Below, in pieces: positions 102 through 15,968 of a stretch of DNA of 48,439 bases (its first letter is position 1; each line of letters starts with the position of its first letter). The notes beneath the pieces are model-generated. The model worked only from the letters and a program-made list of their open reading frames with translations. It made no database searches and was not told the origin of the DNA. A program made the translations under genes and the position numbers. This DNA is from Bermanella sp. (GTDB lineage Bacteria > Pseudomonadota > Gammaproteobacteria > Pseudomonadales > Oceanobacteraceae), in NCBI GenBank assembly GCA_029938135.1, contig JAPYOO010000005.1, positions 1 through 48,439 of the forward strand. Direction: 5' to 3'.

Positions 102-1079
102 TTAAGGAGCAAAGGTTAAAGGAAATTCGAACTTATCCTCTGATTTTGAAGTATCAAAAGACAACATCTTACATGTCATAATCATGCGTTTTTCAACCTT
201 TTTATCCTGCAAGTCACTGGCATTTATTTTACAGCTACTCACGTCACCCGAAGCGGCGATCGTAACACCCAGTGTGACCGTTCCTTCTAAAGCTGGGTTA
301 CTACGTAATGCTTTTTTATAAATTCGTGTAAAGCGTGATAAATTACGCTCAAACACACGATTTATTTGCATTTGCGAACGAGACATTCCAGCCAATCTCT
401 TATCCTGTGGTGCCTCTGCCATCACGTCCTTAGCTAGCTCCTTCACTTCAGTGGTGTCTCGATTTGCTTCGGCTAATTGCTCTGCCCCAGTGGAGCGAGT
501 TAAGCTTGATTCATCTATTCCGCCAATACGATTCACTGCAGTTTGGTCAACAACATCCCCCACATCCGTTGCGGCCGAACCATCATTGTTTAAGCTAGCA
601 CTGTCTACCGTTAAGGACGACATATCAAGCATGCTTTGCATATCAGCTAAATCATTGGAGAAATTGGCTATCAATTTTTTAGCTTTTGCTTTTGCAGCTT
701 TTATTCGGTCTGGTGTACGTTCCTTTTTGGCGACCCTTTTAGGTTTGGGTTTTGGTTTTGGTTTAGCCACCACTTTTGGTGTTGGTTTGGCCTTAACAAC
801 TTCCTTTTTCACCTCGGGTTTTTTCTCAATCTTTTTTTCAATCACTTTTGGTTTGGGCTTTGGTTTAGGCGCTTCTTTTTTACGCTTAATGACCTTAGCC
901 AACTGCGCAGGTACTTTTTCGAGTTTTTCACGCTCAATTTTTGGCAAGCTAATATTGGGAACAATCACACCCATTATGAGTGTTACCGATAAAAAGACGA
1001 TTAAAATAATCTTAAACAAATGCTCTTGTTTATTATCAGCCCAAGGCAATTGAGGAGATCGATAGGTAAGACTACTCAT
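102..1079 (-). CDS. TonB-like energy transducer with AgmX/PglI-type C-terminal domain
   Basis: This 325-residue protein is anchored by one N-terminal membrane helix (about residues 23-43). A Lys/Pro-rich periplasmic stretch (about 60-125) follows, as in TonB or TolA. A low-complexity linker leads to a C-terminal domain (about 230-325) that resembles the AgmX/PglI (GltG/GltJ) C-terminal domain of Myxococcus motility proteins. Two cysteines in that domain (in SSCKIN and MTCKML) could form a disulfide. The ATG overlaps the TAA of the preceding ExbD gene by one base (TAATG), so translation is probably coupled. It is the last gene of the operon. By analogy it would carry proton-motive energy from the ExbB/ExbD complex across the periplasm to the TPR lipoproteins. 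The architecture is seen in the sequence; the partner choice is inference. An iron-uptake TonB is less likely because no receptor gene is nearby. Confidence 0.85.
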   Translation of the reverse strand: MSSLTYRSPQLPWADNKQEHLFKIILIVFLSVTLIMGVIVPNISLPKIEREKLEKVPAQLAKVIKRKKEAPKPKPKPKVIEKKIEKKPEVKKEVVKAKPTPKVVAKPKPKPKPKRVAKKERTPDRIKAAKAKAKKLIANFSNDLADMQSMLDMSSLTVDSASLNNDGSAATDVGDVVDQTAVNRIGGIDESSLTRSTGAEQLAEANRDTTEVKELAKDVMAEAPQDKRLAGMSRSQMQINRVFERNLSRFTRIYKKALRSNPALEGTVTLGVTIAASGDVSSCKINASDLQDKKVEKRMIMTCKMLSFDTSKSEDKFEFPLTFAP

Positions 1080-1582
1080 TACGTCTCCTTAATATCTTTT
1101 TTCTGAGCGGCAAGAGATATTTGAGTAAAGCTTGCTTTCTGGCAGGTTGCCATAATGCGCTTCAATACCTTATAAGGTATGCCCTTATCTCCCATTATCG
1201 TGATAGGTCGCCCTAACTCTAACTCGGTGGCCGTGGCCTGAGTTTTACTCGCTAAGTAATTAAGTTCCTTTTGTAACTCAGGAATCAATTCTTTATCAAC
1301 GTTCATGGCCAGTACATCTTTAACCGATGCCACCAACCGCCCTTGCACAATAATGTCATCACTACTCACCATTAAATTAACTGTATTTAATGGTTGTGCC
1401 TGAGTGACACTATCTGGCAATGTGATGTCGTCATTACTCATCACTTCAACATCACTTTGGTTCATCATTAAGAAGAACACCATTATGGTAAAAATATCCA
1501 TCAGCGATACTAGATTCAACGCCACATCTTTTTTAGTGCGGCGCTGCTTTCTAGACTGGCGTTTATCTTTTGCTGCACTCAT
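1079..1582 (-). CDS. ExbD/TolR-family protein, copy 2 (with proton-carrying Asp)
   Basis: A 167-residue ExbD/TolR-type protein. A very basic cytoplasmic start (residues 1-18) precedes a single membrane helix with the motif SLMDIFTIMVFFLM. Asp29 in this helix occupies the position of the proton-carrying Asp of ExbD and TolR. The rest is a periplasmic domain. In the family, a pentamer of the ExbB-type subunit surrounds a dimer of ExbD-type proteins and converts proton flow into motion. The ATG overlaps the stop of the preceding ExbD paralogue by 4 bp (ATGA), and its own stop overlaps the start of the TonB-like gene. Tandem ExbD genes after one ExbB gene match the AglR-AglQ-AglS arrangement of Myxococcus. 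The family call is firm; the exact partnership is inferred from gene order. Confidence 0.92.
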   Translation of the reverse strand: MSAAKDKRQSRKQRRTKKDVALNLVSLMDIFTIMVFFLMMNQSDVEVMSNDDITLPDSVTQAQPLNTVNLMVSSDDIIVQGRLVASVKDVLAMNVDKELIPELQKELNYLASKTQATATELELGRPITIMGDKGIPYKVLKRIMATCQKASFTQISLAAQKKDIKET

Positions 1583-2079
1583 GACTTCACCTCCACTAAA
1601 GGCGCATCACCAAGCGATACATCAGGAAATAACACGGCATTCACCACACTGGCTGCCACCACTGCCTGAAACGATTTTGCGGCATCAATAACAGCAATAA
1701 TCACTTGATAGTCAATATTGGGTTCTGACAAGATAACGATATCTTTACGCTCGCGACCAAGCTCCTTCTTTTCCTTTTGTAAAGCTATGGAGAGCTGTTT
1801 AATATCAAATTTCCCATCTTTTTTAGCAATACTGCTTCTCTCTAAAGGGCCAAAATTTACCTTAAAGCCACTTTCTCGTATTACAACTTCCAAAGTTAAG
1901 TCGTCAGGATCTAAGTCCTGTGCTTTTAATTCTTCTTCCAGCGGTAGCCTTAAATCAAGAACGGTTATTTGATTAAAAACCATGCTTATCAGCAGTACCG
2001 GAACCAAGATAATCATCAGGTTCATGAAAGAGGTAATGTCTAACTCTGTATCTTCTTGTGCTTTTCTACGGCGTCTCAT
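1579..2079 (-). CDS. ExbD/TolR-family protein, copy 1 (Asn in place of the key Asp)
   Basis: A 166-residue ExbD/TolR-type protein with a basic N-terminus (MRRRRK), one membrane helix (about 15-38) and a periplasmic domain. The helix reads ITSFMNLMIILVPVLL. Aligned with its sister gene (SLMDIFTIMVFFLM) and with classical ExbD, the proton-carrying Asp is replaced by Asn20. It may therefore be a structural or gating half of an asymmetric heterodimer and not an active proton carrier. Asp14 lies just before the helix and could be an alternative. A clear Shine-Dalgarno sequence (GGAGG, 6 nt spacing) precedes the ATG, and its stop overlaps the next ExbD start by 4 bp. The family call is firm; the functional effect of the Asn is inference. 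Confidence 0.9.
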   Translation of the reverse strand: MRRRRKAQEDTELDITSFMNLMIILVPVLLISMVFNQITVLDLRLPLEEELKAQDLDPDDLTLEVVIRESGFKVNFGPLERSSIAKKDGKFDIKQLSIALQKEKKELGRERKDIVILSEPNIDYQVIIAVIDAAKSFQAVVAASVVNAVLFPDVSLGDAPLVEVKS

Positions 2080-2103
2080 AAACCAACCTCCACTTCTTAA
2101 GGG

Positions 2104-2766
2104 CTACTTGGCCACTTTAGGGGCGGCTGATGCTTGAGGAGTTGGTTTACGTTCAGTGATTAAATTTAAAAACTTAACGGTGGCCATTTCTAAGCTATCA
2201 ATGATTTCAGCAGTACGACTTTGCAAAATGGTATGGGCCAACAACAAGGGAATTGCTGAGATTAATCCGAATGCCGTGGTGTTCATGGCAACCGAAATAC
2301 TTTGTGACAATAATGTCGCTTTTTCAGACGGTGCCGCAGTGGCCACCGCAGTAAAGGCAGCAATCAAACCTATGATAGTACCCAAAAGCCCCATAAGAGT
2401 AGAGATATTAGCCAAAGTACCAATGTAACCGGTACGCTTTTCAAGCTTAGGCGTCGTTTCCATCAAGCCTTCTTCCATTGCATACTCAATGTCTTCACGG
2501 CGGTTGCTAATTGGCATACGGGCAATACCTGCACCGTAAATATTGGCAATATCGCTATCTGATTGGCCAGCATAATTTAAGGCCGCTTTATAATCTTTTC
2601 GTTGGATCATGGGTAGCATGTCGTCAAAGGCCTTGCGGTTCCTGCGCTTCGCCGATGAGATGCTTAATAAGCGTTCAATGGCTATTGATAATCCGATAAC
2701 TAAAATGACAGCAATCGGGTACATGAAAACGCCGCCATCTTGAAAAAAGCGAATGAGAGTATCCAT
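2104..2766 (-). CDS. MotA/TolQ/ExbB proton channel family protein
   Basis: A 220-residue protein with the family layout: one N-terminal membrane helix (about 12-35), a cytoplasmic loop, and two further helices (about 113-140 and 155-180). It has the characteristic stretch GLLGTIIGLIAAFTAV and the later NTTAFGL segment. It would form the inner-membrane channel core around the two ExbD-type proteins encoded directly downstream. The ATG follows AGAGGAAG at 6 nt. A 136-bp AT-rich gap separates it from the preceding gene and contains a 7-bp hairpin (2808-2825), so a second promoter or a processing site may let the ExbB-ExbD-ExbD-TonB block be expressed at its own level. AglR of the Myxococcus gliding motor is the closest conceptual match. 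A TolQ is less likely because no tolA, tolB or pal is present. Confidence 0.93.
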   Translation of the reverse strand: MDTLIRFFQDGGVFMYPIAVILVIGLSIAIERLLSISSAKRRNRKAFDDMLPMIQRKDYKAALNYAGQSDSDIANIYGAGIARMPISNRREDIEYAMEEGLMETTPKLEKRTGYIGTLANISTLMGLLGTIIGLIAAFTAVATAAPSEKATLLSQSISVAMNTTAFGLISAIPLLLAHTILQSRTAEIIDSLEMATVKFLNLITERKPTPQASAAPKVAK

Positions 2767-2902
2767 AGTGTACTTCCTCTATTGAATTTTATTCTGAGTC
2801 TTAATCTGGTTTAAAGAATTAAACCGTACGTTTTTTTATTGTTTTAATTTTTTACTGGCTACTAATTATAATTATTTGTAACTTCACGTTATTAAATTAC
2901 GA

Positions 2903-3196
2903 TTAAGGCATTAGGTCAACGACTGCTTTAGCTGGGTTTTTCCATTGTTTATGCAAACCCAGCTCTAATTCAAATGTATGTGGATCAATGGGCTTAAGTC
3001 GTTGTACTTCACCTCCGGAAATAGGACTGTAAAGGCGTTCAGCACCCTTAGGTGATTGCCAAGGAATGATGTACATCACCTGGGGCGCTTCGTTGTCGGC
3101 TTTAATTCTAATACCTTCCAAACGGGTTATTTTTTGCTTAGCTTGAACACTAACAACCATCATTAAGCACGTTATTAACATCACTAAAATTTTCAT
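2903..3196 (-). CDS. Small secreted protein of the TPR/ExbBD operon
   Basis: A 97-residue protein that I do not recognise. Residues 1-19 form a signal peptide ending VQA. The mature part is about 78 residues, with no cysteine and no membrane segment, and contains the hydrophobic patch VMYIIPW. The start ATG overlaps the stop of the preceding TPR lipoprotein gene by 4 bp, so it is probably translationally coupled to it. Its position between the TPR genes and the ExbB gene suggests a small periplasmic or outer-membrane-associated part of the same machine. It could be an assembly factor; nothing in the sequence assigns an activity. Confidence 0.75.
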   Translation of the reverse strand: MKILVMLITCLMMVVSVQAKQKITRLEGIRIKADNEAPQVMYIIPWQSPKGAERLYSPISGGEVQRLKPIDPHTFELELGLHKQWKNPAKAVVDLMP

Positions 3197-3813
3197 TGCG
3201 ATACCTCACCTGCGATTTGAGTTTTCACCCCAGTACGACGATTAATATCCACGATCCAACCGGCAACCTTTCGATCAGGTTCATTTAACATGCCTTGATA
3301 TTTTTGATAATACTCACTGGCTTTAACAAACTTCCCCATATAAATATCGTATAAAATACCCACATTAATATAAGCAGTGCTATCTTCTGGAACGGCTTTT
3401 ATTGCTTTTAGATAACTTTTTTCAGCTTTATCAAACTGCCCACTTTGGCGATAAACTAAACCAAGCTGATTTAATATTTTAATATTTTTAACGTTTTTAA
3501 CATGCCCTTCTTCCAGCACTGACTGTGCCTTAGGCCAATCTTTTTGGTGAGCATAAATCACACCCAAGTTGGCGAAAGGTCCTGACAATTGCGGATAGTC
3601 TATCGTCATTTTTTCTAACAGTGCTTGGGCTTGCGTGAGCTTTGAATTATTCAAATGCTCTATAGCCAGCTTAAAGTCAACAGCGGCCTGAGCAGGAATT
3701 TCAATCACTTGAGACTCTACATTAGCTGCTACCTGCTGCTTTACTTGATTACCCATGCAGGCACTCAGCAGCAACAACAAACATGCAAGACTAGTGTATT
3801 TCAGCAATAACAT
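3193..3813 (-). CDS. TPR-repeat lipoprotein
   Basis: A 206-residue lipoprotein: the signal peptide ends in the lipobox LSAC (Cys19), followed by MGN. With no Asp at +2, outer-membrane sorting is expected. From about residue 45 it has tandem TPR motifs, visible in GPFANLGVIYAHQKDW, NQLGLVYRQSGQFDKAEKSY and TAYINVGILYD. The start lies inside the 3' end of the preceding 941-codon gene (23-bp overlap) but has an excellent Shine-Dalgarno sequence (AGGAGGTAA, 8 nt spacing), which fixes this ATG. TPR lipoproteins usually scaffold multiprotein envelope complexes. In the comparable Agl-Glt systems, TPR lipoproteins such as GltE connect the inner-membrane motor to the outer membrane. That role here is inference from context. 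Confidence 0.9.
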   Translation of the reverse strand: MLLLKYTSLACLLLLLSACMGNQVKQQVAANVESQVIEIPAQAAVDFKLAIEHLNNSKLTQAQALLEKMTIDYPQLSGPFANLGVIYAHQKDWPKAQSVLEEGHVKNVKNIKILNQLGLVYRQSGQFDKAEKSYLKAIKAVPEDSTAYINVGILYDIYMGKFVKASEYYQKYQGMLNEPDRKVAGWIVDINRRTGVKTQIAGEVSQ

Positions 3814-6616
3814 CGTAACTTACCTCCTCTTTACCATATCGAGCTGGCATTAATTTAGATAAAGAGCCAATACTCTTTGAGATCCAATCATCATACAAAC
3901 CATCCCAACTACGCTTGATATTGGTCTCATGAATATTGATAGCGTACTCTTCAAATGGAAACGCTTGGTCTTCTAACAAGTACTCATATTCTTCCAATTC
4001 CAATTCGTCCAAACCTGCGGGACGCTGAGAGTTCATAAGGTCGCGAGACAGTTGCCCATATATTTCAGCAATTTGAAACGTTGCAGCCGTTGTGAACTCT
4101 TGAACTTTCATCTTAGCCGTACGCTGATAGGCATCAAGCGTTAGTTTCAAGCCTACTTTCTTCTTAGCTAGGCTCTTTTGTAACGGTAACGTTAGCTTTA
4201 CTTGAGCGTAAGACTGACGCTCATAGTCCGCTAAACTAAAGGATGCCTTTGCCGCTAAGAAACGTGAGCGATCTGAACGGTCTTTACCCGATTTTTGATC
4301 CGCAGCAATAAGCTTATTTAACCAGTATTTACGTTTCTCATGGTTTTCTTGTACTAAATAAAGCGCTTCTAGTTTATTGATAGCCTCCAGTTGCGCATCA
4401 AATGGCTTAGCATAGTTGTGTGCATAACGTTTTAACATGGACATCGCATTCTCTATGTCCTTGGCCTTTTCATAATATTCAGCCGCCTGAAACAAAGCGA
4501 TACGTTGCTTTTCTTTATTGCGAGCAAATCGCCAAATATTTTGCAGCTCAAATGCGGCCTTTTTCCATTGAGACATATTCTCATAAGCCACAATTAGCTT
4601 AGATGGAACATCTTTTACTAACTTATGCTTAGGAAATAACTCACGAAAACTCAAAAGGATTGTTTCCGCTCTTGCCCATTGCTGTTTTTTCATAAGGTAA
4701 GCCGCTGCATCGTAATGGGCGGTAATACGAATGGGAGATTCAGGTACAATTTTGCCCACGCGCATAAATTGATCCACTGCGTTATCTAAGTTGCCTTTTC
4801 CAACCCACGCAACACCTTGTTTATATATACTGGCTGCTAATTTTTCACGAACGTCCTTGAGCTCGCTTGGCTTTACTTTTTTCAGATCAAGTGCAGCTAT
4901 ATAGGCTATTTCTGCCGGTTTATACTCGTGTAAATCAAAGTGACTATGAGCCTTTATCAGATATGCAACTGACTTCTGATTGACAGTAGCGTCACCTGTA
5001 TTAAGCACTCTAGTAGAGGTGGCTGCGGCTAAAGAGAACTTACTTAGACTAAATAAACCTTGTGCTGCCCGAGCCAAAACTTGAACTGTCTTTTTATTAT
5101 GAGGGTAAACATCGGCAAAACGTAATGCTGTATCCACTTTACGTTCAAGCCAATTGGTTTTTTCTTTCCCTTTGCTTTTCTTGATGATGCGATTATAGGC
5201 CACTAAAGCGGCAAAGGCCGATTCTTCTGAATGTTTATGATAGATAGTATCAAAACCACCACTCACATAAGCACTGATAGCTTCTTCAATCCGGCCTACA
5301 TCGTAAAGTGTTTCGGCCTTTAAGAAATACATTTCGCCTAGCGCGTTATCATGAGGGAAAGTATCTATATATTCCTGATACCACCTAGCAGCCGTTAACA
5401 ATGCATTGAATTTTCTTTTTAGGTTGTTAGTTTTTTGGCCTCTAGCATGATAGTACTGAGCTAATTCAGAGGTATACCCTTTTAAATTTGGGCGAATCAT
5501 TTCTTTTATGTCTTCATCGTATAAGTTCCAATAAGGACTATTGACTCCGAAATTTTCGATATAAGCCATTTTATGCTTAAGTACTTGATCTACGTAACCA
5601 GCAAGTTTATAACTTTTTACAATATTTAAGTAAAAGGCCGAAGCCAGTACGTCTTCTGGATTGGCACTTACAAAGGCTTTATAGGTTTTAGCCGCATCAC
5701 TGTATTGGCGTTTCTCTATATAGTACTCAGCTAATGCGTCATACAATAAGTATTCGTAATGACGTGAACCTGTACGTTTGAATAACTTAACGATTTCTTT
5801 ATGGCCGTTATCATCAGCAAAAACCATACTCATTACACGTACAGTGTCATCCAGCAATTCCCTATCGCCTTTAGAAGCGGTAACAATGGCCGTGGTATTT
5901 TTAAAGCGGCTATCAATCACTGAGATGAATGAATTCAAGGCGTCTTGGTATCGATGCAGCTTAAATTGACTCCAACCTCGCATATATTGTGCACTGGTAA
6001 AAAAACGATTGTCTTTTTTATATTGCGTGACAAATGCAAATGACTTCTGGGCCTGTGAAAACTGTTGGTCATAAAACAACATATCACCACGTCTATAATG
6101 CGCTTCGACTACTAGCGGGGAACTAGGAAATGTTTTAGTGAGAGTATCAAGGGAGTTTAATGCCGCTTCAGTATCCCCTTTCAACATGTATACCTTCGCT
6201 AACTGGTACAACAGCATGTCGCTATCGCGACGATTAGGAAATAATTTCAATACGTTTTTATACGTATCGATTGCTTTTTTATAAACCGACTGAACATGTT
6301 GAGCGTCCAATAATTCAGGGTCTTCGGTGAGTAACTCTTCTATATCCATCAACTTTAAATCAGCCAAACGATGCATTACATGCACTCTAGTATCATTAGT
6401 TGGTGATATTTCTAAGTAATGCTGATACTTAGCGATGGCTTTTTGGGTATTCATTTGTGGTGCTGGCATTTTGGCCAAGCGTACACCTACCGGACGTATA
6501 TTACTGATACTTTTACCGCTTAAGTCCTGCCCTGTACTGATTATATTTTTTTCAGGCTGGTTGGCACAGGCAATTAACAACAAACTGCTGGCCATAATAA
6601 TTAAATACTTATTCAT
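3791..6616 (-). CDS. Large TPR-repeat lipoprotein
   Basis: A 941-residue lipoprotein. The signal peptide ends in the lipobox LIAC (Cys17), followed by ANQ, which favours outer-membrane sorting. Almost all of the mature protein consists of helical TPR or TPR-like repeats, for example LLYQLAKVYMLKGDTEAALNSL, VVEAHYRRGDMLFYDQQFSQA and YFLKAETLYDVGRIEEAI. This gives a superhelical scaffold large enough to span much of the periplasm. The ATG overlaps the stop of the preceding 627-codon TPR gene by 4 bp. It is the longest member of the operon and probably the main scaffold. GltD or GltE of the Myxococcus gliding machinery are the nearest conceptual relatives. I cannot establish orthology by eye, and no enzymatic motif is seen. 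Confidence 0.9.
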   Translation of the reverse strand: MNKYLIIMASSLLLIACANQPEKNIISTGQDLSGKSISNIRPVGVRLAKMPAPQMNTQKAIAKYQHYLEISPTNDTRVHVMHRLADLKLMDIEELLTEDPELLDAQHVQSVYKKAIDTYKNVLKLFPNRRDSDMLLYQLAKVYMLKGDTEAALNSLDTLTKTFPSSPLVVEAHYRRGDMLFYDQQFSQAQKSFAFVTQYKKDNRFFTSAQYMRGWSQFKLHRYQDALNSFISVIDSRFKNTTAIVTASKGDRELLDDTVRVMSMVFADDNGHKEIVKLFKRTGSRHYEYLLYDALAEYYIEKRQYSDAAKTYKAFVSANPEDVLASAFYLNIVKSYKLAGYVDQVLKHKMAYIENFGVNSPYWNLYDEDIKEMIRPNLKGYTSELAQYYHARGQKTNNLKRKFNALLTAARWYQEYIDTFPHDNALGEMYFLKAETLYDVGRIEEAISAYVSGGFDTIYHKHSEESAFAALVAYNRIIKKSKGKEKTNWLERKVDTALRFADVYPHNKKTVQVLARAAQGLFSLSKFSLAAATSTRVLNTGDATVNQKSVAYLIKAHSHFDLHEYKPAEIAYIAALDLKKVKPSELKDVREKLAASIYKQGVAWVGKGNLDNAVDQFMRVGKIVPESPIRITAHYDAAAYLMKKQQWARAETILLSFRELFPKHKLVKDVPSKLIVAYENMSQWKKAAFELQNIWRFARNKEKQRIALFQAAEYYEKAKDIENAMSMLKRYAHNYAKPFDAQLEAINKLEALYLVQENHEKRKYWLNKLIAADQKSGKDRSDRSRFLAAKASFSLADYERQSYAQVKLTLPLQKSLAKKKVGLKLTLDAYQRTAKMKVQEFTTAATFQIAEIYGQLSRDLMNSQRPAGLDELELEEYEYLLEDQAFPFEEYAINIHETNIKRSWDGLYDDWISKSIGSLSKLMPARYGKEEVSYDVIAEIH

Positions 6617-8496
6617 TGTCTGAACTCCGTACCCGCAGCCACTCGATGTTTATTGGACGTTTCATCAAATAAACGTGCAGCCGCTAATCGGGCTTGTAGT
6701 TGATAGTCCATCACCAACTTTTGACGTTCTTTTATATCCAACTTTACTATGCCGCCCACTTTTTCTCTTTGTTTCTGATACACCACATCAAGACGCGTCA
6801 ATTGGCTTTTATATTTATTGCGCAACCTAGTTACTTTCTTATCAAAACCCCTAAAACTCTTTGGTGAAAATCTAAACGCTAGTTTGGCAGCTTTAAGTTG
6901 ATTTTGAGTTTTCTTAATCTTCCCATCAAGAATGGCTAAGTTTTTTGATACTTCTTTTTTACGTTCATAATAACGCTGTGATAAAGACCATTTTAAAACA
7001 CCCTCTACACGTCGTAGACGTTGAAGATAATGGCTGTGTCCATCCAACCTATTAAAATCAGATTTCAACTCATTGAAACGCGCTAATTGGCTTTTTTCAT
7101 ATTCAGAGGCTAATCCCACACCATTTGGGTTATTAAAGGCTTTACTAATTTTATTCTGCAGTGACTTATAACGTTTATTAAGCTTAAGTAATTTACGACT
7201 AGTGAGGTTAATACGCTTATCATTTTTAATTTTTAAATATTCATCCTGGCGAGTATTTTGTAACTGGTCAAACGCGCTTAACTGTTCAATACCCGACTTA
7301 AGTTGCGAACGCATGACATGCAAATCTCTTAAGTTTTTTAGTTCGCCTTGAAAATAGCTTTTACTCATCACGTCTTTCAAATAAATACGATCAGGGTGAT
7401 CCGGTAATGAAAGGTCTATTGCGGAAAATGCACCCCATTTATCGGGGACTTGCTGCGCTAATAACGGCTCTATAAATTCCCCTGTATTAAGCCGTAATGC
7501 ACTGGCTTCTAACTGTGTGTAAATTAGATCGTATTGCTCGCTTGCATAATCAAAGGCCCCTAATGCCATGACTTTAGCATTAAGTTTTTCAAGTAGATGC
7601 GGAATAGCAATAAGCGTTTCTTGTACATCTTGATTAAGCGGTGAATGGTTAGTTTTAAGCATATACCATGGCTGTAAAGCATCATGGTATTGCCATTGTT
7701 CGGTTAATGCCCAGCCATAGGTTAGTAATGCCTTAGACGTGAATGAGCCCTCTAGGCTCACTTCCTTTAAATGTTTGATGGCGCTTCGCCCTCGCCCCGT
7801 AGCGAAGAAAAACTGACCTGCCATTAAATTAATTTTATCCACTAAGCTTTCTGGATGAGCGGTATATTTGGTTAACAACTTAGCTTTTTCAAACACGGCC
7901 TCAACCTTACTGGTGTGTACATCGCGCTCGGTATAACTCACCGCGAGATTTAAAAAGGCGTAGGCCGACCACATACTTTGAGTACTGATGGCTAAAATAT
8001 GTTTATCGGCAAGCGTGGCTTTACCTTGAAATAACTCGAGGGTAGCGGCAATAAAATGAAACTCATCTTTAAGCCGAGGATTAATGTCTTTAACGTTAAT
8101 TTGGTGAATTGCCTGCAAGGCCGTTTTCCACATACCTTTATCATAAAAGTGCTTAGCTAAATAAAACCAGGCTTGGGCGCGTGTGGCATTTGAAAGGTCT
8201 TTATTCGTTTTAGAACGCAGTAACTTTTTGTATTGTTTTTTTGCCTGCTGACTCATGCCTAAACCAAGCATGGCAGTAGCTTGCTGTATCTGAAGCAAGG
8301 AGGTACTTTTTTTTCCTTGGCGTTTTTGTAATATCTGGTTCAATCCCAGAGACTTTTGATAGTCTCCAGAATGCAGGCTAAACAGTAATTGACCATACAC
8401 AGCATCTTGGCCACTGCTGCGATGTTGTTCGGGCAGTAGATCTTCAGCTAAGGCAAATGAACTGACCGCAATCGCGATCACGCAAAACCAACGCAC
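6613..8496 (-). CDS. Periplasmic TPR / coiled-coil protein
   Basis: A 627-residue exported protein. Residues 1-17 form a signal peptide ending ALA, with no lipobox Cys, so it is probably soluble in the periplasm. The N-terminal two thirds are TPR-like (for example ATRAQAWFYLAKHFYDKGMWKTALQAI and KALLTYGWALTEQWQYHDAL). The last ~230 residues are strongly basic and helical with heptad-like spacing (about 400-600), suggesting a coiled coil. The start is a GTG one base after the TAA of the preceding gene, supported by GGAAG 5 nt upstream; no nearby ATG fits the signal peptide. It is probably an elongated adaptor between the other TPR proteins and the TonB-like protein. A relation to GltC/GltD-type proteins is possible but unproven. 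Confidence 0.85.
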   Translation of the reverse strand: MRWFCVIAIAVSSFALAEDLLPEQHRSSGQDAVYGQLLFSLHSGDYQKSLGLNQILQKRQGKKSTSLLQIQQATAMLGLGMSQQAKKQYKKLLRSKTNKDLSNATRAQAWFYLAKHFYDKGMWKTALQAIHQINVKDINPRLKDEFHFIAATLELFQGKATLADKHILAISTQSMWSAYAFLNLAVSYTERDVHTSKVEAVFEKAKLLTKYTAHPESLVDKINLMAGQFFFATGRGRSAIKHLKEVSLEGSFTSKALLTYGWALTEQWQYHDALQPWYMLKTNHSPLNQDVQETLIAIPHLLEKLNAKVMALGAFDYASEQYDLIYTQLEASALRLNTGEFIEPLLAQQVPDKWGAFSAIDLSLPDHPDRIYLKDVMSKSYFQGELKNLRDLHVMRSQLKSGIEQLSAFDQLQNTRQDEYLKIKNDKRINLTSRKLLKLNKRYKSLQNKISKAFNNPNGVGLASEYEKSQLARFNELKSDFNRLDGHSHYLQRLRRVEGVLKWSLSQRYYERKKEVSKNLAILDGKIKKTQNQLKAAKLAFRFSPKSFRGFDKKVTRLRNKYKSQLTRLDVVYQKQREKVGGIVKLDIKERQKLVMDYQLQARLAAARLFDETSNKHRVAAGTEFRQ

Positions 8497-8497
8497 C

Positions 8498-9025
8498 TTA
8501 CTTCCACTCTACAATGGCGAAATCTGGGCGATTTTGTTTTTCATTGTTGCTGATTTTAATTTCTAGATATTTACTTGCGCGTGCTTTGCCGAAATCGGCT
8601 ACCACCGTACGTTTTAATGAACGGCCATCCGAATCTTTACCTAATATTTGTGCGCTTAACTTATGTAAGCCTGGTTTTAAATTACCTATAAATATTTTTT
8701 GAATACCGCCACGGCGTAGCGCCTCAACTTGAGCAGCCGTATATAAATAGGAAGTAATGTCTTCAGTGTCTAAGGTGAGCTTAATTGAAGCTACGGCGAA
8801 ATCATCCACGGCTTCCATGGAAACAAAAACGGCAAATTCTGTTGTGGCTGGGTAAAGAAGCTGTTCTTCAAGTTCGAACAACTCTTGATTTAACTGTACC
8901 ACTTCCGATTTTAACGTCTCGATGCTGGCATCTAAATCTGCCTGTGCCGCAGCTAAGGTTATTTTTGGCGCTAATAGGCTAAGCAGGCACAGCATTACTG
9001 TGATTGAGGTACGGATTGCCTTCAC
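8498..9025 (-). CDS. Exported coiled-coil protein, first gene of the TPR/ExbBD operon
   Basis: A 175-residue protein that I do not recognise. A signal peptide (residues 1-25, ending LA) is followed by a short coiled coil (about 28-58, rich in L/E/Q with heptad spacing). The remaining ~115 residues look beta-rich, with alternating hydrophobics such as VASIKLTLDTEDI and LKPGLHKLSAQILGKD, and could be an Ig-like or PEGA-like fold. The start is a GTG with AAGGG at about 6 nt; an in-frame ATG ten codons later would break the signal peptide. The 160 bp upstream lie between this gene and the terminator of the next operon and should hold the promoter of the nine-gene operon. Everything downstream is on the same strand with gaps of at most 136 bp. 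Confidence 0.8.
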   Translation of the reverse strand: MKAIRTSITVMLCLLSLLAPKITLAAAQADLDASIETLKSEVVQLNQELFELEEQLLYPATTEFAVFVSMEAVDDFAVASIKLTLDTEDITSYLYTAAQVEALRRGGIQKIFIGNLKPGLHKLSAQILGKDSDGRSLKRTVVADFGKARASKYLEIKISNNEKQNRPDFAIVEWK

Positions 9026-9249: not shown

Positions 9250-10434
9250 CTAACGGGTTAATTGGCGCATTGCGTCTTCTAAACCGTTCACGGTCAATGG
9301 AAACATATTATCTTCCATTATTTCATGTATCGCTTTTAAAGAGCCACTCCAGCCCCACTGATCATCAGGAACGGGATTTAGCCACACAACCTTATCAAAG
9401 GTTTCTTGTACACGTTTCAACCAAGTAGCACCGGATTCATCATTCCAATGCTCCACACTGCCACCCACATGGGTTACTTCATATGGGGCCATCATGGCGT
9501 CCCCTATAAAAATAACCTTGTAGTCCTTAGTATATTTACGCAATAAATCCCACGTCATGGTGCGTTGATGGTTGCGACGAATATTGTCTTTCCAAACGCT
9601 TTCATAAAGGCAATTATGAAAGTAAAACGTTTCCATATGTTTGAATTCACTGCGAGCGGCTGAAAATAACTCTTCACATGTTTTCACAAACGGATCCATC
9701 GTTCCGCCAATATCAAAGAACAGCAGTACTTTCACGGCATTGTGACGTTCGGGTACTAGCTTTATGTCAAGGAAGCCGGCGTTATTGGCGGTTGAGTGGA
9801 TAGTATCATCAAGATCCAACACCTCTTCAGCGCCTTGGCGTACAAATTTACGCAAACGTCTAAGGGCCACTTTAATGTTACGAATACCCAACACAACGTC
9901 ATCATCTAGATTACGATAATTGCGCTTTTCCCACACTTTAATGGCTTTTTTATGACGACTTCGACCTTGGTCAACACGCATGCCTTCTGGGTTATAACCA
10001 TCATTCCCAAAAGGTGACGTGCCTCCAGTACCAATCATTTTGTTGCCGCCGCGGTGACGTTTTTCTTGTTCTTCGAGACGCTCTCTGAATTTTTTCATGA
10101 GTTCATCAAAGCCACCTTGGGCTTCAATGGCTTCCATCTCTTCTTTGCTGAACATGCGTTCAAACTCAGACTTCATCCAATCTTCAGGAATACCCTTAGC
10201 ACTGGTTAAAATACTGTCTAAAGTATCTATGCCTTTAAAATAATGGGCAAAGGCCTTATCAAATTTGTCGAAATGACGTTCATCTTTAACTAAGCACAGA
10301 CGACTTAGATAATAGAAATCATCCAGGTCGGCAAACGCTAAGCGATGTTTAATGGCGCTTATTAAGTCCAAATACTCCCGTATTGAACAGGGTATTTTGT
10401 ACTCACGCATGGTTTGAAAATAATCAACCAACAT
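9250..10434 (-). CDS. VWA domain-containing CoxE-like protein
   Basis: A 394-residue cytoplasmic protein with no signal peptide or membrane segment. The N-terminal ~180 residues are helical and charged, with a Gly/Arg-rich linker around 145-165. The C-terminal half is a von Willebrand A-type domain. Its metal-site motif is LLFFDIGGTMD (about residue 240), with the CoxE-family form D-x-G-G-T in place of D-x-S-x-S. The gene lies 6 bp downstream of a MoxR-type AAA+ ATPase. MoxR and VWA proteins are commonly paired as chaperone-like systems that insert cofactors or remodel protein complexes, as in CoxD/CoxE. No carbon monoxide dehydrogenase or other obvious client is encoded nearby, so the target is unknown. 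The terminator just downstream shows that the pair forms a complete transcription unit. Confidence 0.9.
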   Translation of the reverse strand: MLVDYFQTMREYKIPCSIREYLDLISAIKHRLAFADLDDFYYLSRLCLVKDERHFDKFDKAFAHYFKGIDTLDSILTSAKGIPEDWMKSEFERMFSKEEMEAIEAQGGFDELMKKFRERLEEQEKRHRGGNKMIGTGGTSPFGNDGYNPEGMRVDQGRSRHKKAIKVWEKRNYRNLDDDVVLGIRNIKVALRRLRKFVRQGAEEVLDLDDTIHSTANNAGFLDIKLVPERHNAVKVLLFFDIGGTMDPFVKTCEELFSAARSEFKHMETFYFHNCLYESVWKDNIRRNHQRTMTWDLLRKYTKDYKVIFIGDAMMAPYEVTHVGGSVEHWNDESGATWLKRVQETFDKVVWLNPVPDDQWGWSGSLKAIHEIMEDNMFPLTVNGLEDAMRQLTR

Positions 10435-10440
10435 GTGTCA

Positions 10441-11277
10441 TTAACCTTTGCGGCGCGTCATAAACGCCAGCTTTTGTAACAATTCAACATCTTGTTCATT
10501 CTTCACCATGGCACCGTATAAAGGCGGAATGGAGTTTTCTTTGCTGCGCAAGGTTTCAGGATCGACATCATCCGCCAGCAATAACTTTAGCCAATCGACC
10601 AGTTCAGACGTAGACGGTTTTTTCTTAAGCCCAGGCACTTTACGCAAGTCAAAAAATACATCCATGGCTTCAGCCAATAGATCTTTTTTAATGTCAGGGT
10701 AATGTACATCAACAATTTTTTGCATGGTTTGCTTGTCAGGGAAGTCGATGTAATGAAAGAAACAGCGACGTAAAAACGCATCGGGTAATTCTTTTTCGTT
10801 GTTACTGGTAATGATAATGATTGGACGGTGTTTAGCGACGATACGCTCTTGAGTCTCGTAAACAAAAAACTCCATTTTATCCAATTCAAGTAACAAATCG
10901 TTAGGGAACTCGATATCGGCCTTGTCGATTTCATCGATCAATAATACCGGTGGTTTGTCACCCGTAAAGGCTTCCCATAACTTACCTTTCTTAATGTAGT
11001 TACTAATATCATTTACATCTGCATTACCCAACTGGGAATCACGTAAACGAGAGACCGCGTCATATTCATATAAGCCCTGATGCGCTTTAGTGGTGGACTT
11101 GATGTGCCACTGAATAAGAGGGGTACCTAAGGCTTCAGCCAATTGTTCGGCCAACATGGTTTTACCTGTGCCAGGCTCACCTTTAATTAAAAGTGGACGC
11201 TGTAGGGTAATGGCCGCGTTAACCGCCATCTGTAGTTCACTGGTAGCAACGTATTCTTCAGTACCGGAAAATTTCAT
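10441..11277 (-). CDS. MoxR-family AAA+ ATPase
   Basis: A 278-residue AAA+ ATPase of the MoxR/CoxD type. Walker A is GEPGTGKT (residues 33-40), Walker B is VLLIDE (111-116), a sensor 1 motif ITSNNE follows near 155, and the LRRCFF segment carries candidate arginine fingers. The C-terminal lid domain contains KKPSTSELVDWLKLL. The length is normal for the family. MoxR ATPases form hexameric rings and act with VWA partners to remodel or activate other proteins; the CoxE-like partner is encoded 6 bp downstream. The ATG has only a weak Shine-Dalgarno sequence. The 110 bp upstream, before the amidotransferase gene, probably hold the promoter. The client protein is unknown. Confidence 0.93.
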   Translation of the reverse strand: MKFSGTEEYVATSELQMAVNAAITLQRPLLIKGEPGTGKTMLAEQLAEALGTPLIQWHIKSTTKAHQGLYEYDAVSRLRDSQLGNADVNDISNYIKKGKLWEAFTGDKPPVLLIDEIDKADIEFPNDLLLELDKMEFFVYETQERIVAKHRPIIIITSNNEKELPDAFLRRCFFHYIDFPDKQTMQKIVDVHYPDIKKDLLAEAMDVFFDLRKVPGLKKKPSTSELVDWLKLLLADDVDPETLRSKENSIPPLYGAMVKNEQDVELLQKLAFMTRRKG

Positions 11278-11387
11278 ATTTTGCTCATTCGGGGTAACAA
11301 TTTGCAGGCATATTACCCTAGCGTACCCATATTAACACTGGCTAAGCCCTACAAATTATTGACCAAATTGTACAATTTAACGGGATT

Positions 11388-12170
11388 TTAGTCGCCAGTG
11401 CGCACAAATAGTGAGTCTCCATTCAAAAACGCCCTAAACTCACCTTTTATGTAAGGCTGCCATTGTTCATTCTGAGTTAAGGGTTCCGTGGCTATAATCG
11501 TCACTTTGTCGTGTAAGGCCGTCTCATTCGCAAAATTCACCGTCAGCTGCGCATCCTTAAGACTGGCTTGATTAAAGGGTGCCTGGCGAGTAATCCAATA
11601 TAATTTGCTGCTACAAAAGCTCACTAGAAAATTACCGTCACTAAGCAGCATATTAAACACCCCCAACTTTGCCAATTCGCTGCAGGCTAGCGCCACTACG
11701 GGCAGCCATTGCTCGTGACTTTCTGGTAACACGGGGAATTTTTGACGTAGGCGGTCCAGCATCCAACAAAATGCATGTTCGCTATCGGTCTGGCCGATGG
11801 GTGTATAAAAGTTCAGTGGTCTCTTTTTTACGTCTGGGATTTGACCGTTATGGGCAAATGAAAAAGAACGCCCCCATAATTCCCGTTGAAACGGGTGAGT
11901 ATTTTCTAAGCTGGTGCTGCCCACGTTTGCTTGCCGAATATGACTAAGGACTATTTGGCTTTTAATGGGGTAGGCTTTTACCCAATTGGCTAACGGCGAT
12001 TGGGCACTGGGATTTGGGTCATGAAAGGCTCTGGCACCAGCGCCTTCATAAAAGACAATACCCCAGCCATCACGATGAGGGCCGGTACGTCCGCCCCTTT
12101 CCATAAGGCCGGTAAAACTAAAACAAATATCGGTAGGGGTATTAGCACTCATACCCAATAGTTCACACAT
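11388..12170 (-). CDS. Class II glutamine amidotransferase (YafJ-type)
   Basis: A 260-residue protein of the class II (Ntn) glutamine amidotransferase family. I chose the ATG at 12170 over an in-frame TTG two codons upstream because it puts the nucleophilic cysteine at residue 2 (MCELLGMS), as the mechanism requires after Met removal. Other family motifs are GWGIVFYEG, SHIRQA (the SHxR substrate-binding motif), AHNGQI and TDSEHAF. The length is like E. coli YafJ (about 255), and there is no synthase domain, so the acceptor reaction is unknown. It follows the acidic VWA gene on the same strand but is separated from it by 61 bp. It is probably cytoplasmic, with hydrolysis of a gamma-glutamyl amide as the likely chemistry. 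Confidence 0.92.
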   Translation of the reverse strand: MCELLGMSANTPTDICFSFTGLMERGGRTGPHRDGWGIVFYEGAGARAFHDPNPSAQSPLANWVKAYPIKSQIVLSHIRQANVGSTSLENTHPFQRELWGRSFSFAHNGQIPDVKKRPLNFYTPIGQTDSEHAFCWMLDRLRQKFPVLPESHEQWLPVVALACSELAKLGVFNMLLSDGNFLVSFCSSKLYWITRQAPFNQASLKDAQLTVNFANETALHDKVTIIATEPLTQNEQWQPYIKGEFRAFLNGDSLFVRTGD

Positions 12171-12231
12171 GTACAAAATTCCAAATTGATGTATATCGTA
12201 AACGCATTACAGTTTTTAATTTTACATCAAT

Positions 12232-15012: not shown

Positions 15013-15684
15013 TTACATTTGGCTTTCTAGTACGCGACGACCTTTTTCAGTAATGTGCCAGCGAATACCGTTTTTACCACTCACTTTACCCGCCATACTG
15101 CGCGTCACTAATACCGCCAATGTTTGCAGCATAGTAGACTCATCGTTGTTAGACTCACGACACAAACCGGGTAATGATCTAAAGATATATCGGCCAGTGG
15201 CCAGCATCTTTAAGGCGTTAGAACTGGTCACATCCAGCTCTTCTTCCATTTTCATAATTTCAGGTTCGTCTTCTGGCTCTAATTCTTGCTCTGTTTCGGT
15301 GTCGATTAAGGGCAGTAATTCATTTTTTATGATGCGTAAGTCGTGATGTACGGTTTCTGATTGCTCTTTAGCGTGACGCGCGGCATCCAAAATACGATCA
15401 GACATATTGGTAATGAAAAACCGACTTGCGATGGCAGATATTAGACAAAAACCGGTAAATATTAATAACCGCGACGGATCCCCCTGGGTCTCTAATATAA
15501 GTTCACTGTTCACTAGGTCTAATATCACCGGCACTAAAAACGCGGCGCCTATGCCCACCACTAGGCACCGGGGTAAACTGATCGCGTCGGGATCATTTTC
15601 ACCGTACATATAATAATTCACTAACCCGCCGAAAATTCCGGCCAGCAGCATGACGGTTGCAAGAATAAAAATATGGTTAGCCAT
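15013..15684 (-). CDS. Three-TM membrane protein, possible YLATT domain with C-terminal winged-helix-like region
   Basis: A 223-residue protein. The ATG at 15684 has a good Shine-Dalgarno sequence (AAGAGGTG, 6 nt); an ATG six codons upstream lacks one, so I prefer the shorter form (MANHIFIL). Three hydrophobic helices lie in the first ~95 residues (around LLAGIFGGLVNYYMYG, GIGAAFLVPVILDLV and LIFTGFCLISAIASRFFI). This pattern matches my memory of the YLATT domain (YEATS-like-associating three-TM), described by others in membrane-linked signalling or conflict systems. An acidic coiled stretch follows. The last ~80 residues (MLATGRYIFRSL...KGRRVLESQM) look like a winged helix-turn-helix. It immediately precedes the acidic VWA gene, so the two may act together at the inner membrane. 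The domain name is moderate confidence; function is unknown. Confidence 0.75.
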   Translation of the reverse strand: MANHIFILATVMLLAGIFGGLVNYYMYGENDPDAISLPRCLVVGIGAAFLVPVILDLVNSELILETQGDPSRLLIFTGFCLISAIASRFFITNMSDRILDAARHAKEQSETVHHDLRIIKNELLPLIDTETEQELEPEDEPEIMKMEEELDVTSSNALKMLATGRYIFRSLPGLCRESNNDESTMLQTLAVLVTRSMAGKVSGKNGIRWHITEKGRRVLESQM

Positions 15685-15968
15685 TTGACACCTCTTATTC
15701 ATTAGAGCCTATAGATAGCGCCGCTAATAAATCGTTCTAAATAATTTTAAAATCAGTGGCTACCGCCTAACGCACACTAATTTACCCAGTGTTTTTATCC
15801 TTATGTTTAAGACTACGCACTAGTTATAAAACTAGACGTATTTTTCAATAGCGCAAAAAATCTGTTGTTAGTGATTGTTTTATAGACAATTTATGCCATT
15901 AAATGCAATACACCTTAGAACACGGCCAAACTTGCCTGTTATACTGCGTCTAACAATTGGAGAGCATT

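Follow-up and report, generated by a model that had tools for sequence, protein, structure and literature searches.

The nine-gene operon

The window, by which we mean the whole stretch of 48,439 nucleotides analysed from a Bermanella sp. contig, carries at one end nine open reading frames on the reverse strand (positions 102-9025), all nine of which were confirmed. In operon order, they encode X175, GltC, GltD, GltE, Y97, AglR, AglQ, AglS and GltG, which contain 175, 627, 941, 206, 97, 220, 166, 167 and 325 amino acids, respectively. The genes had been described as overlapping within a single operon. This was found for five neighbouring pairs (overlaps of 4-23 bp in four of them and of 1 bp in AglS/GltG) but not for the three others, which are separated by 1 bp (X175/GltC), 24 bp (AglR/AglQ) and 136 bp (Y97/AglR). 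Due to this last gap, an additional promoter ahead of the motor genes AglR-AglQ-AglS is possible. A terminator-like hairpin of 15 pairs with a loop of 4 is located 3' of GltG on the same strand (62-95); the hairpin scan, in which loops up to 8 were allowed, gave 13 sites for the region, compared with 8.8 ± 3.2 for shuffled sequences.

Motor, transducer and TPR proteins

Analysis with Pfam and NCBIfam bore out the original prediction of one ExbB-type protein, two ExbD-type proteins and a TonB-like protein of the AgmX/PglI type. AglR (2104-2766) matched the MotA/TolQ/ExbB family PF01618 with 90.8 bits, and the two ExbD/TolR proteins, AglQ (1579-2079) and AglS (1079-1582), matched PF02472 with 40.5 and 61.5 bits. 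GltG (102-1079) consists of a short cytoplasmic end and one transmembrane segment, both recognized by eye, a Pro/Lys-rich linker and an AgmX/PglI C-terminal domain (NF033768, 62.4 bits for a cut-off of 40). This protein also scored 36.8 bits with the GltG family (NF033760, cut-off 650) and weakly, 24.8 bits, with an NCBIfam TonB C-terminal family (cut-off 27.1); no FHA domain was matched in the Pfam scan.

TPR repeats were detected in GltD (3791-6616) and GltE (3193-3813), together with the lipoboxes LIAC and LSAC, respectively, seen by eye, in agreement with the two TPR lipoproteins expected. For the predicted periplasmic TPR/coiled-coil protein, GltC (6613-8496), the signal-like N-terminus was found, but the TPR match stayed below cut-off. 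Signal-peptide-like N-termini, assigned by eye and not by a predictor, were present in GltC and also in X175 (8498-9025) and Y97 (2903-3196), the two small proteins that had been considered exported.

When the gammaproteobacterial profiles of GltD, GltE, GltG, AglQ and AglS were compared with Myxococcus and Hyalangium proteins, counterparts were obtained for each of them. The GltD profile gave 136-288 bits with myxobacterial GltD-like proteins encoded beside other glt genes, and the GltE profile 51-196 bits with GltE-like proteins; with the NCBIfam GltE family, the window protein reached 36.4 bits, far under the cut-off of 225. The GltC profile was weaker than the others (15-41 bits to GltC-like myxobacterial proteins), and the position of the gene in the operon is the right one.

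The AlphaFold2 model of X175 (mean pLDDT 92.2) comprises a helix at residues 2-57 followed by a beta domain, that is, a predicted signal region and long helix and then a predicted beta-sandwich domain. A fold search with this model returned weak matches only, mostly to beta-sandwich proteins, and comparison of the X175 profile with the PDB by sequence gave nothing useful. However, profile comparison with two myxobacterial proteins gave a probability of 94.7 and an E-value of 6e-8, the counterpart in Myxococcus and Hyalangium being encoded upstream of a GltC-like gene. For Y97, hhalign with its putative myxobacterial counterpart gave a weak match (E-value 1.6e-4, probability 50); the Hyalangium protein at this position scored 24.6 bits with the CglF family NF033764 (cut-off 90). 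On these comparisons, X175 and Y97, the latter at the GltF/CglF position, probably both have myxobacterial counterparts, with good support for X175 and weak support for Y97.

The best NCBIfam matches of AglR were TolQ (64.4 bits, cut-off 221) and ExbB, both below cut-off, and its matches in the PDB were TolQ and ExbB entries only. The two ExbD-type proteins scored 24.7 and 21 bits with TolR, for a cut-off of 127.3. In the AglR tree, one clade with an SH-aLRT of 95 contained 41 of the 51 rows, including all 8 myxobacterial rows used, and the remaining ExbB/TolQ-type proteins encoded in the window's genome were placed away from it; this is a quick tree with some long branches, and a lone Desulfuromonas row lies outside the Agl clade. 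The phylogenetic and profile checks suggested with the original prediction thus both turned out in favour of a gammaproteobacterial Agl-Glt relative, GltC giving the fainter signal. The reported absence of receptor, Tol/Pal and flagellar genes is correct as far as the nine operon genes are concerned. The TonB2/TtpC and Tol-Pal systems have in common with the window system an ExbB/ExbD-type motor and a TonB-like transducer, but differ in tree position and gene content, and on these two grounds Tol-Pal and TonB identities were rejected. Elsewhere in the genome there are ExbB-type genes in tandem, the first encoding a long protein, which resemble TtpC systems. The operon is almost certainly a complete core machine of the Agl-Glt/Nfs type, and its nine genes probably encode a proton-driven machine that crosses the cell envelope.

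The ExbD pair corresponds to AglQ and AglS in the same order, as Myxococcus AglQ scored 60 bits with the gammaproteobacterial AglQ profile and 12 with the AglS profile, and Myxococcus AglS 95 bits with the AglS profile and 23 with the AglQ profile. In M. xanthus, a membrane aspartate of AglQ is essential to proton conduction and motility, and its change to asparagine paralyses the motor. At this place, the AglQ proteins compared carry Asn in 89 of 92 sequences (Asn20 in the window), Ser in two and Asp in one, and the aspartate of AglS (Asp29) is conserved in 92 of 92. Since AglQ has Asn in place of Asp, it is likely that protons pass through AglS only.

The idea of an Agl-Glt relative is not new, as a stand-alone core complex was already described in Gammaproteobacteria by Luciano et al. 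2011 (PMC3169522). The operon had been likened to a reduced Agl-Glt system; in the accessible part of that paper, the core is by contrast considered ancestral, unites gltC, D, E and G with aglR, Q and S in one cluster, as in the window, and is at times present in several copies per genome. It is given as seven genes with one extra gene lacking a myxobacterial homologue, whereas two small extra genes, X175 and Y97, recur here. Neither the Asp-to-Asn change of AglQ nor the TIGR04565 and DUF3570 neighbours presented below were met in that part of the paper. Furthermore, nothing on the AglQ asparagine or on a link between the core and TIGR04565 barrels was found in the accessible texts of a literature search that covered few subscription journals.

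Distribution, barrels and neighbours of related copies

With the GltD profile, the core was found in 88 of 369 genomes of the class, and the genome of the window has three Agl-Glt-type systems. Of 33 related loci, 30 show the same nine-gene order, another contains the nine genes in rearranged order and two are incomplete; among 76 additional loci, the order was found in 43, or in 44 if a locus with a split GltC is included. Because of this conservation, the nine-gene set is not due to chance. The Hyalangium order (X175-like, GltC, GltD, GltE, GltF-like, GltG) is also that of the window. In three Geobacter-type genomes (G100-G102), the searches for AglR- and GltD-like proteins gave no match as strong as expected, whereas the core was reported in three Geobacter in the part of PMC3169522 that was available; this discrepancy is perhaps a matter of species.

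A barrel scoring above the TIGR04565 cut-off was present in 56 of the 369 genomes, from 31 families; all 56 belong to the 88 core-positive genomes and none to the 281 others, and the remaining 32 core-positive genomes gave no match above cut-off. By our reading of the matches, the barrel has a DUF3570 match at a distance of no more than about 3 kb in 53 of the 56. TIGR04565 also fits two Myxococcus barrels encoded directly before a GltC-like gene (193.5 and 71.5 bits). The order of this cluster, barrel, barrel, GltC-, GltD-, GltE-, GltF- and GltG-like, is that of the gammaproteobacterial set, and from its layout we take it to be the nfs cluster. Glt and Nfs share AglRQS. The window system thus resembles the Myxococcus Agl-Nfs spore-coat machine (PMC3858216) in gene order, but in Myxococcus the motor genes are shared and lie elsewhere, whereas in the window the motor and transducer genes form a single operon that no barrel gene adjoins. 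According to the part of PMC4488436 available, the M. xanthus proteins GltA and GltB, two barrels that are paralogues, bind GltC.

Upstream of many relatives' cores, a recurrent cassette encodes a giant HZS_alpha-type protein, an SH3-barrel protein, the barrel, and thioredoxin-like and DUF3570 proteins. In addition, giant proteins are encoded 3' of gltG in eleven loci, and DUF11-type repeats were above cut-off in five of the six scanned. A DUF1501 label for one recurrent neighbour was dropped, as none of the three members scanned had a Pfam match. The DUF3570, thioredoxin-like and haem-motif proteins encoded beside many copies could also suggest that the motor drives redox or metal-handling machinery outside the cytosol. 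Thioredoxin-like and DUF3570 neighbours each occur in 20 families and ApbE in 15 (confirmed by Pfam in both proteins scanned), the HZS_alpha-type neighbour averages 2.4 CxxCH motifs over the partial sequence covered, and a Chlorobium DUF3570 protein is flavinylated by its ApbE, according to the accessible part of PMC8238504. The thioredoxin-like label of the family f1 proteins was assigned by clustering and by a ResA match of 15.9 bits; a member scanned with Pfam gave nothing. However, the [ST]GA[ST] motif occurs in only 9 of the 25 DUF3570 proteins from cassettes, which fit the DUF3570 profile in part only, and many copies, that of the window included, are without the cassette; we therefore regard a redox role as rather unlikely.

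Gliding or another surface motility, as driven by Agl-Glt in Myxococcus, would agree with the homology of AglR, AglQ, AglS, GltD, GltE, GltG and, more faintly, GltC, and with the barrel family that many relatives share with Myxococcus. The window system differs from the gliding machine in that AglQ lacks the essential Asp and GltG the FHA match. Furthermore, at an E-value of 1e-20, the polarity GTPase MglA was found in only 3 of the 88 carriers and not in the window's own genome. Although undirected movement would be compatible with the absence of MglA, motility is an unlikely output.

Beside the window copy there is no surface-protein gene, the contig stopping just past GltG; in the same-genus loci L031 and L033-L036, the next gene after GltG points in the opposite direction. 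An SH3-type and a barrel gene precede X175 in 9 of 12 sister-genus loci and are absent from this position in the window's genus, and a family-type barrel profile had no match in any of nine genomes of the genus; the window itself contains no GltA/GltB-type barrel, and a TIGR04565 match above cut-off is located at another system (C178) of the window's genome. The copy of this genus might then be losing its function, its outer-membrane partners being gone. However, none of the nine frames is disrupted in the window or in L031-L036, whose AglR proteins share 84-95% identity with that of the window; this may point to continued selection, and we consider such a loss quite improbable. A TonB- or Tol-type system of the ordinary kind, serving the uptake of nutrients or the stability of the envelope, is very improbable: in spite of the TolQ, ExbB and TonB matches below cut-off, AglR groups with Agl, receptor, TolB and Pal are absent among the nine genes, and two unlike ExbD proteins stand in fixed order with TPR lipoproteins.

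Myxobacterial CglB, an adhesin, is a VWA protein, and for this reason the VWA-MoxR-CoxE genes upstream of the operon (9250-14979) were considered as a part of the system. In a profile search covering the 33 related loci, all three genes were beside the core in 16 loci and two of them in one more; all of these loci are of family f1, and the genes were set aside. Between them and the operon, near 9222-9180 (5' of the operon), inspection by eye showed an inverted repeat with a T-run; this repeat is not among the sites given by the hairpin scan, in which loops did not exceed 8.

Proposed mechanism and output

For the core machine, we propose that an AglR pentamer would surround an AglQ/AglS pair in which AglS alone carries protons, and that the motion would pass through GltG to a GltC/D/E relay beneath the outer membrane. 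In many relatives, this relay would act on a GltA/GltB-like pair (the TIGR04565 barrel and the SH3-barrel protein) and on large surface proteins. Since barrel genes are missing beside the copy of the window's genus, it may borrow a barrel pair from another locus of the genome or use another partner.

The original prediction left the output open between motility, transport and surface assembly. From the neighbours of related copies we infer, tentatively, that the machine may most commonly serve to assemble, display or reposition large proteins or lipoproteins of the surface, a role that we place closer to the assembly of the spore coat by Nfs than to gliding. The neighbours are diverse, and many copies show none of the cassette or surface-protein genes in the stretch examined, so several outputs may exist. 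Taken as a whole, the proposal of a core machine with protons on AglS only, a GltG and TPR relay and an output in surface assembly appears somewhat favoured.

The natural asparagine of AglQ predicts a 5:2 motor with one aspartate, and bears on the question of the AglQ/AglS heterodimer. The tie between the core and TIGR04565 and the recurrent surface-protein neighbours provide a named set of candidate partners for study in culturable gammaproteobacteria, and address a question left from 2011, the ancestral job of the myxobacterial gliding machinery. More speculatively, the gammaproteobacterial Agl-Glt might be a general energised surface-assembly system, in which the single-aspartate AglS motor, GltG, the TPR relay and GltA/GltB-like barrels place giant proteins and some motorless copies borrow the motor of a complete copy, in the way that AglRQS is shared by Glt and Nfs. 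Myxobacterial gliding and movement of the spore coat would then be offshoots, and the giant surface proteins placed would be in part adhesin-like and in part endowed with haem motifs.

Kinship of the operon with the myxobacterial Agl/Glt machines

The nine genes, which occupy positions 102-9025 of the minus strand in the order X175-GltC-GltD-GltE-Y97-AglR-AglQ-AglS-GltG, encode products of 175, 627, 941, 206, 97, 220, 166, 167 and 325 aa. All nine ORFs proved to be real, as expected from the original prediction of nine adjacent envelope-machine genes. Analysis with Pfam and NCBIfam revealed one MotA/TolQ/ExbB protein, two ExbD/TolR proteins, TPR repeats and, over its cut-off, an AgmX/PglI C-terminal domain. 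Genes overlap by 1-23 bp at five junctions, the widest intergenic gap (136 bp) precedes aglR, and a terminator-like hairpin of 15 pairs is found 3' of gltG.

Myxobacterial genomes were reached via an MglA query, and 11 genomes, seven of them myxobacterial, were searched. In a quick tree built from 51 AglR/ExbB-type proteins, with several long branches, a single clade (SH-aLRT 95) took in 41 rows, namely all the core AglR proteins, all eight myxobacterial rows and the second and third systems of the window's genome. The other ExbB/TolQ-type proteins of this genome and a lone Desulfuromonas protein fell outside, so that the proposed Agl-Glt kinship was upheld for the channel subunit. It extended to other core proteins when Myxococcus sp. 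CA023 was analyzed with the gammaproteobacterial profiles: AglR scored 180 bits, AglQ 60 bits (12 with the AglS profile), AglS 95 bits (23 with the AglQ profile), and the GltD-, GltE- and GltG-like proteins 153-278, 98-176 and 68-71 bits, respectively. The match was weaker for the GltC-like proteins, at 15-41 bits only.

In Hyalangium (locus L202), genes for an X175-like protein, GltC, GltD, GltE, a small protein and GltG follow the order of the operon. Profile comparison of X175 with its two myxobacterial counterparts gave a probability of 94.7 (E 6e-8), and that of Y97 with the myxobacterial small proteins a probability of 50 (E 1.6e-4). The Hyalangium small protein matched CglF with 24.6 bits, below the cut-off of 90; by these comparisons Y97 is likely, if weakly, the counterpart of this small protein. 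An mglA gene precedes a glt-like cluster on the same strand in Myxococcus CA023 (L196:6717-7301, 124 bp away) and in Hyalangium (L202:3502-4086, 98 bp away). The MglA encoded by L065 (BNCN01000011.1) shares 99% identity with the Myxococcus query; this record bears the title Comamonas sp. KCTC 72670 and looks mislabelled or misassigned.

The motor pair was compared in 92 rows, namely the window and 91 loci, some genomes contributing two rows. At the AglQ position that corresponds in the alignment to the membrane aspartate in the Myxococcus protein, Asn was found in 89 rows, Ser in two and Asp in one, and AglS carried Asp in all 92. Among ten rows outside this set, Asp was present in six myxobacterial AglQ-like rows and the lone Desulfuromonas ExbD, and Asn in Nannocystis, Enhygromyxa and the third system of the window's genome, where six other ExbD proteins retain Asp (by eye). 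In M. xanthus, the AglQ D28N substitution is reported in PMC3858216 to abolish proton conductance and to paralyse the machine; according to PMC9389320, AglQ and AglS each have a conserved aspartate, and whether the two form heterodimers is not known. In the present motors, protons would probably be carried by AglS alone.

Distribution of the core and copies without a motor

With the 627-aa GltC protein as query, matches were obtained in 56 of 93 relatives' genomes. The nine-gene order was kept in 30 of 33 stretches drawn from some of these genomes; in L057 all nine genes are present but X175-GltC come last, and the core is incomplete in L051 and L061. In a sample of 369 genomes across the whole class, the GltD profile matched 88 at E <= 1e-50. 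Among 76 further stretches, 43 contained exactly the nine genes in order and one more had GltC split in two; the remaining 32 lacked at least one core gene, owing to the end of the stretch, an unrecognised gene or absence of the motor.

Seven loci (L231, L241, L243, L246, L266, L270 and L276) had no AglR despite at least 7.7 kb after GltD. For L231, L246 and L270, a motor-bearing copy was fetched from the same genome (L230, L245 and L269, respectively); L240, the partner of L241, reaches its contig end at AglR; a second GltD match exists in the L243 and L266 genomes, and the GltD profile gave none in that of L276. Without proving such sharing, these copies recall Myxococcus, in which Glt and Nfs use a common AglRQS motor (PMC3858216).

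The window's genome contains three Agl-Glt systems, the window's copy being one. The second would combine X175-GltC-GltD-GltE on contig C47, which extends no further than 251 bp upstream of X175, with motor genes on C217, the two contigs being assigned to one system by inference. The third (C178, L210) reads AglR-AglQ-AglS-small protein-GltG-barrel-GltC-GltD, with a GltG of 794 aa and a TIGR04565 barrel of its own.

Barrels and the upstream cassette

Upstream of the window's operon, positions 9250-14979 (minus strand) encode a VWA protein (915 aa, acidic tail, membrane-anchored by eye), a MoxR-type AAA ATPase and a CoxE-type VWA protein. In 16 of the 33 loci the core is preceded by all three genes; these loci all come from family f1, to which the window belongs. 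A PF20303 YLATT three-TM match (144 bits) at 15013-15702 (minus strand) adjoins the VWA gene.

In nine of 12 sister-genus loci of this family, SH3-type and barrel genes precede X175, mostly with a third, thioredoxin-like gene. The barrels measure 201-237 aa, except for one called at 325 aa in L050; the model of the L037 barrel has eight strands (pLDDT 77.7) and OmpA as best PDB match (E 2.9e-6). In the window's genus these genes are absent before X175. The barrel profile, searched without a positive control, found nothing in all nine genomes of this genus; the SH3-type profile matched strongly in seven, on the same contig as the GltC match of the second copy and no more than about 3 kb from it, scored 28.5 bits in G006 and had no match in the window's own assembly.

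Clustering of 937 ORFs neighbouring core loci yielded recurrent, mostly upstream, partners: thioredoxin-like (36 ORFs, 20 families), DUF3570 (25, 20), SH3-barrel (36, 19), a 218-aa barrel (29, 18), an HZS_alpha-type CxxCH protein (19, 17), ApbE (17, 15), a protein of about 545 aa with no Pfam match (11, 10) and a LamG protein bearing cytochrome-type motifs (10, 9). In its fullest form, the cassette reads HZS_alpha protein, SH3-barrel, barrel, thioredoxin-like, DUF3570, then X175. Cassette-bearing loci include L242, L228, L314 and L315, where DUF3570 is divergent, and in two genomes about 8 kb separate the cassette from the core. Just nine of the 25 DUF3570 proteins carry a flavinylation-type motif.

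The L242 barrel matched TIGR04565 with 149.8 bits (cut-off 60). Over the cut-off, this family occurred in 56 of the 369 genomes (31 families), all within the 88 core-positive ones and none among the 281 core-negative (Fisher 1e-43, kinship uncorrected). Weaker matches were found in 55 more genomes, only six of them core-positive, and the tie is therefore limited to the over-cut-off family. By our reading, the barrel has a DUF3570 match no more than about 3 kb away in 53 of the 56 genomes (exceptions: the window's genome, G169 and G366); DUF3570 alone is no core marker, being over its cut-off in 95 of 369 genomes, both core-bearing and core-free.

TIGR04565 also fits Myxococcus barrels encoded immediately upstream of a GltC-like gene (193.5 and 71.5 bits) and one in another glt-like cluster (113 bits). 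M. xanthus GltA and GltB are described as a pair of paralogous barrels with GltC as an interaction partner (PMC4488436), and in 2011 barrels of this kind were listed only for Myxococcales and Bdellovibrionales (PMC3169522). Since the Myxococcus barrels fit TIGR04565 and GltA/GltB bind GltC, such barrels probably have gammaproteobacterial relatives, the likeness being traced through TIGR04565.

Giant surface proteins and the output of the machine

A long protein is encoded directly 3' of gltG in eleven loci (L044, L220, L229, L230, L232, L234, L247, L248, L249, L253 and L254), with 1057-1565 aa available in nine and 725 and 316 aa in two, most being incomplete at the stretch end. GltG reaches 446-477 aa in all eleven, versus about 300-375 aa elsewhere, as if a long GltG were fitted to giant cargo; three loci (L236, L260 and L271) have a GltG above 430 aa without such a neighbour. 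Five of six giant proteins scanned contained DUF11-type repeats over a cut-off, three of these also reaching an isopeptide/fimbrial-domain cut-off, and the sixth, from L044, gave no domain match. In second-copy loci (six of the window's family and L062 of another), gltG is followed by a lipoprotein of 927-1502 aa (564 aa, partial, in L062), also found by the HZS_alpha-neighbour profile; Pfam gave HZS_alpha 19-26 bits in three of four, below the cut-off of 26.6.

MglA was found in three of the 88 carriers and in four of the 281 other genomes. Most carriers are thus unlikely to perform directed gliding as Myxococcus does. Because barrels and giant surface proteins are the commonest recurring partners of the core, we tentatively favour a surface-assembly machine, an output that is plausible but somewhat short of an even chance.
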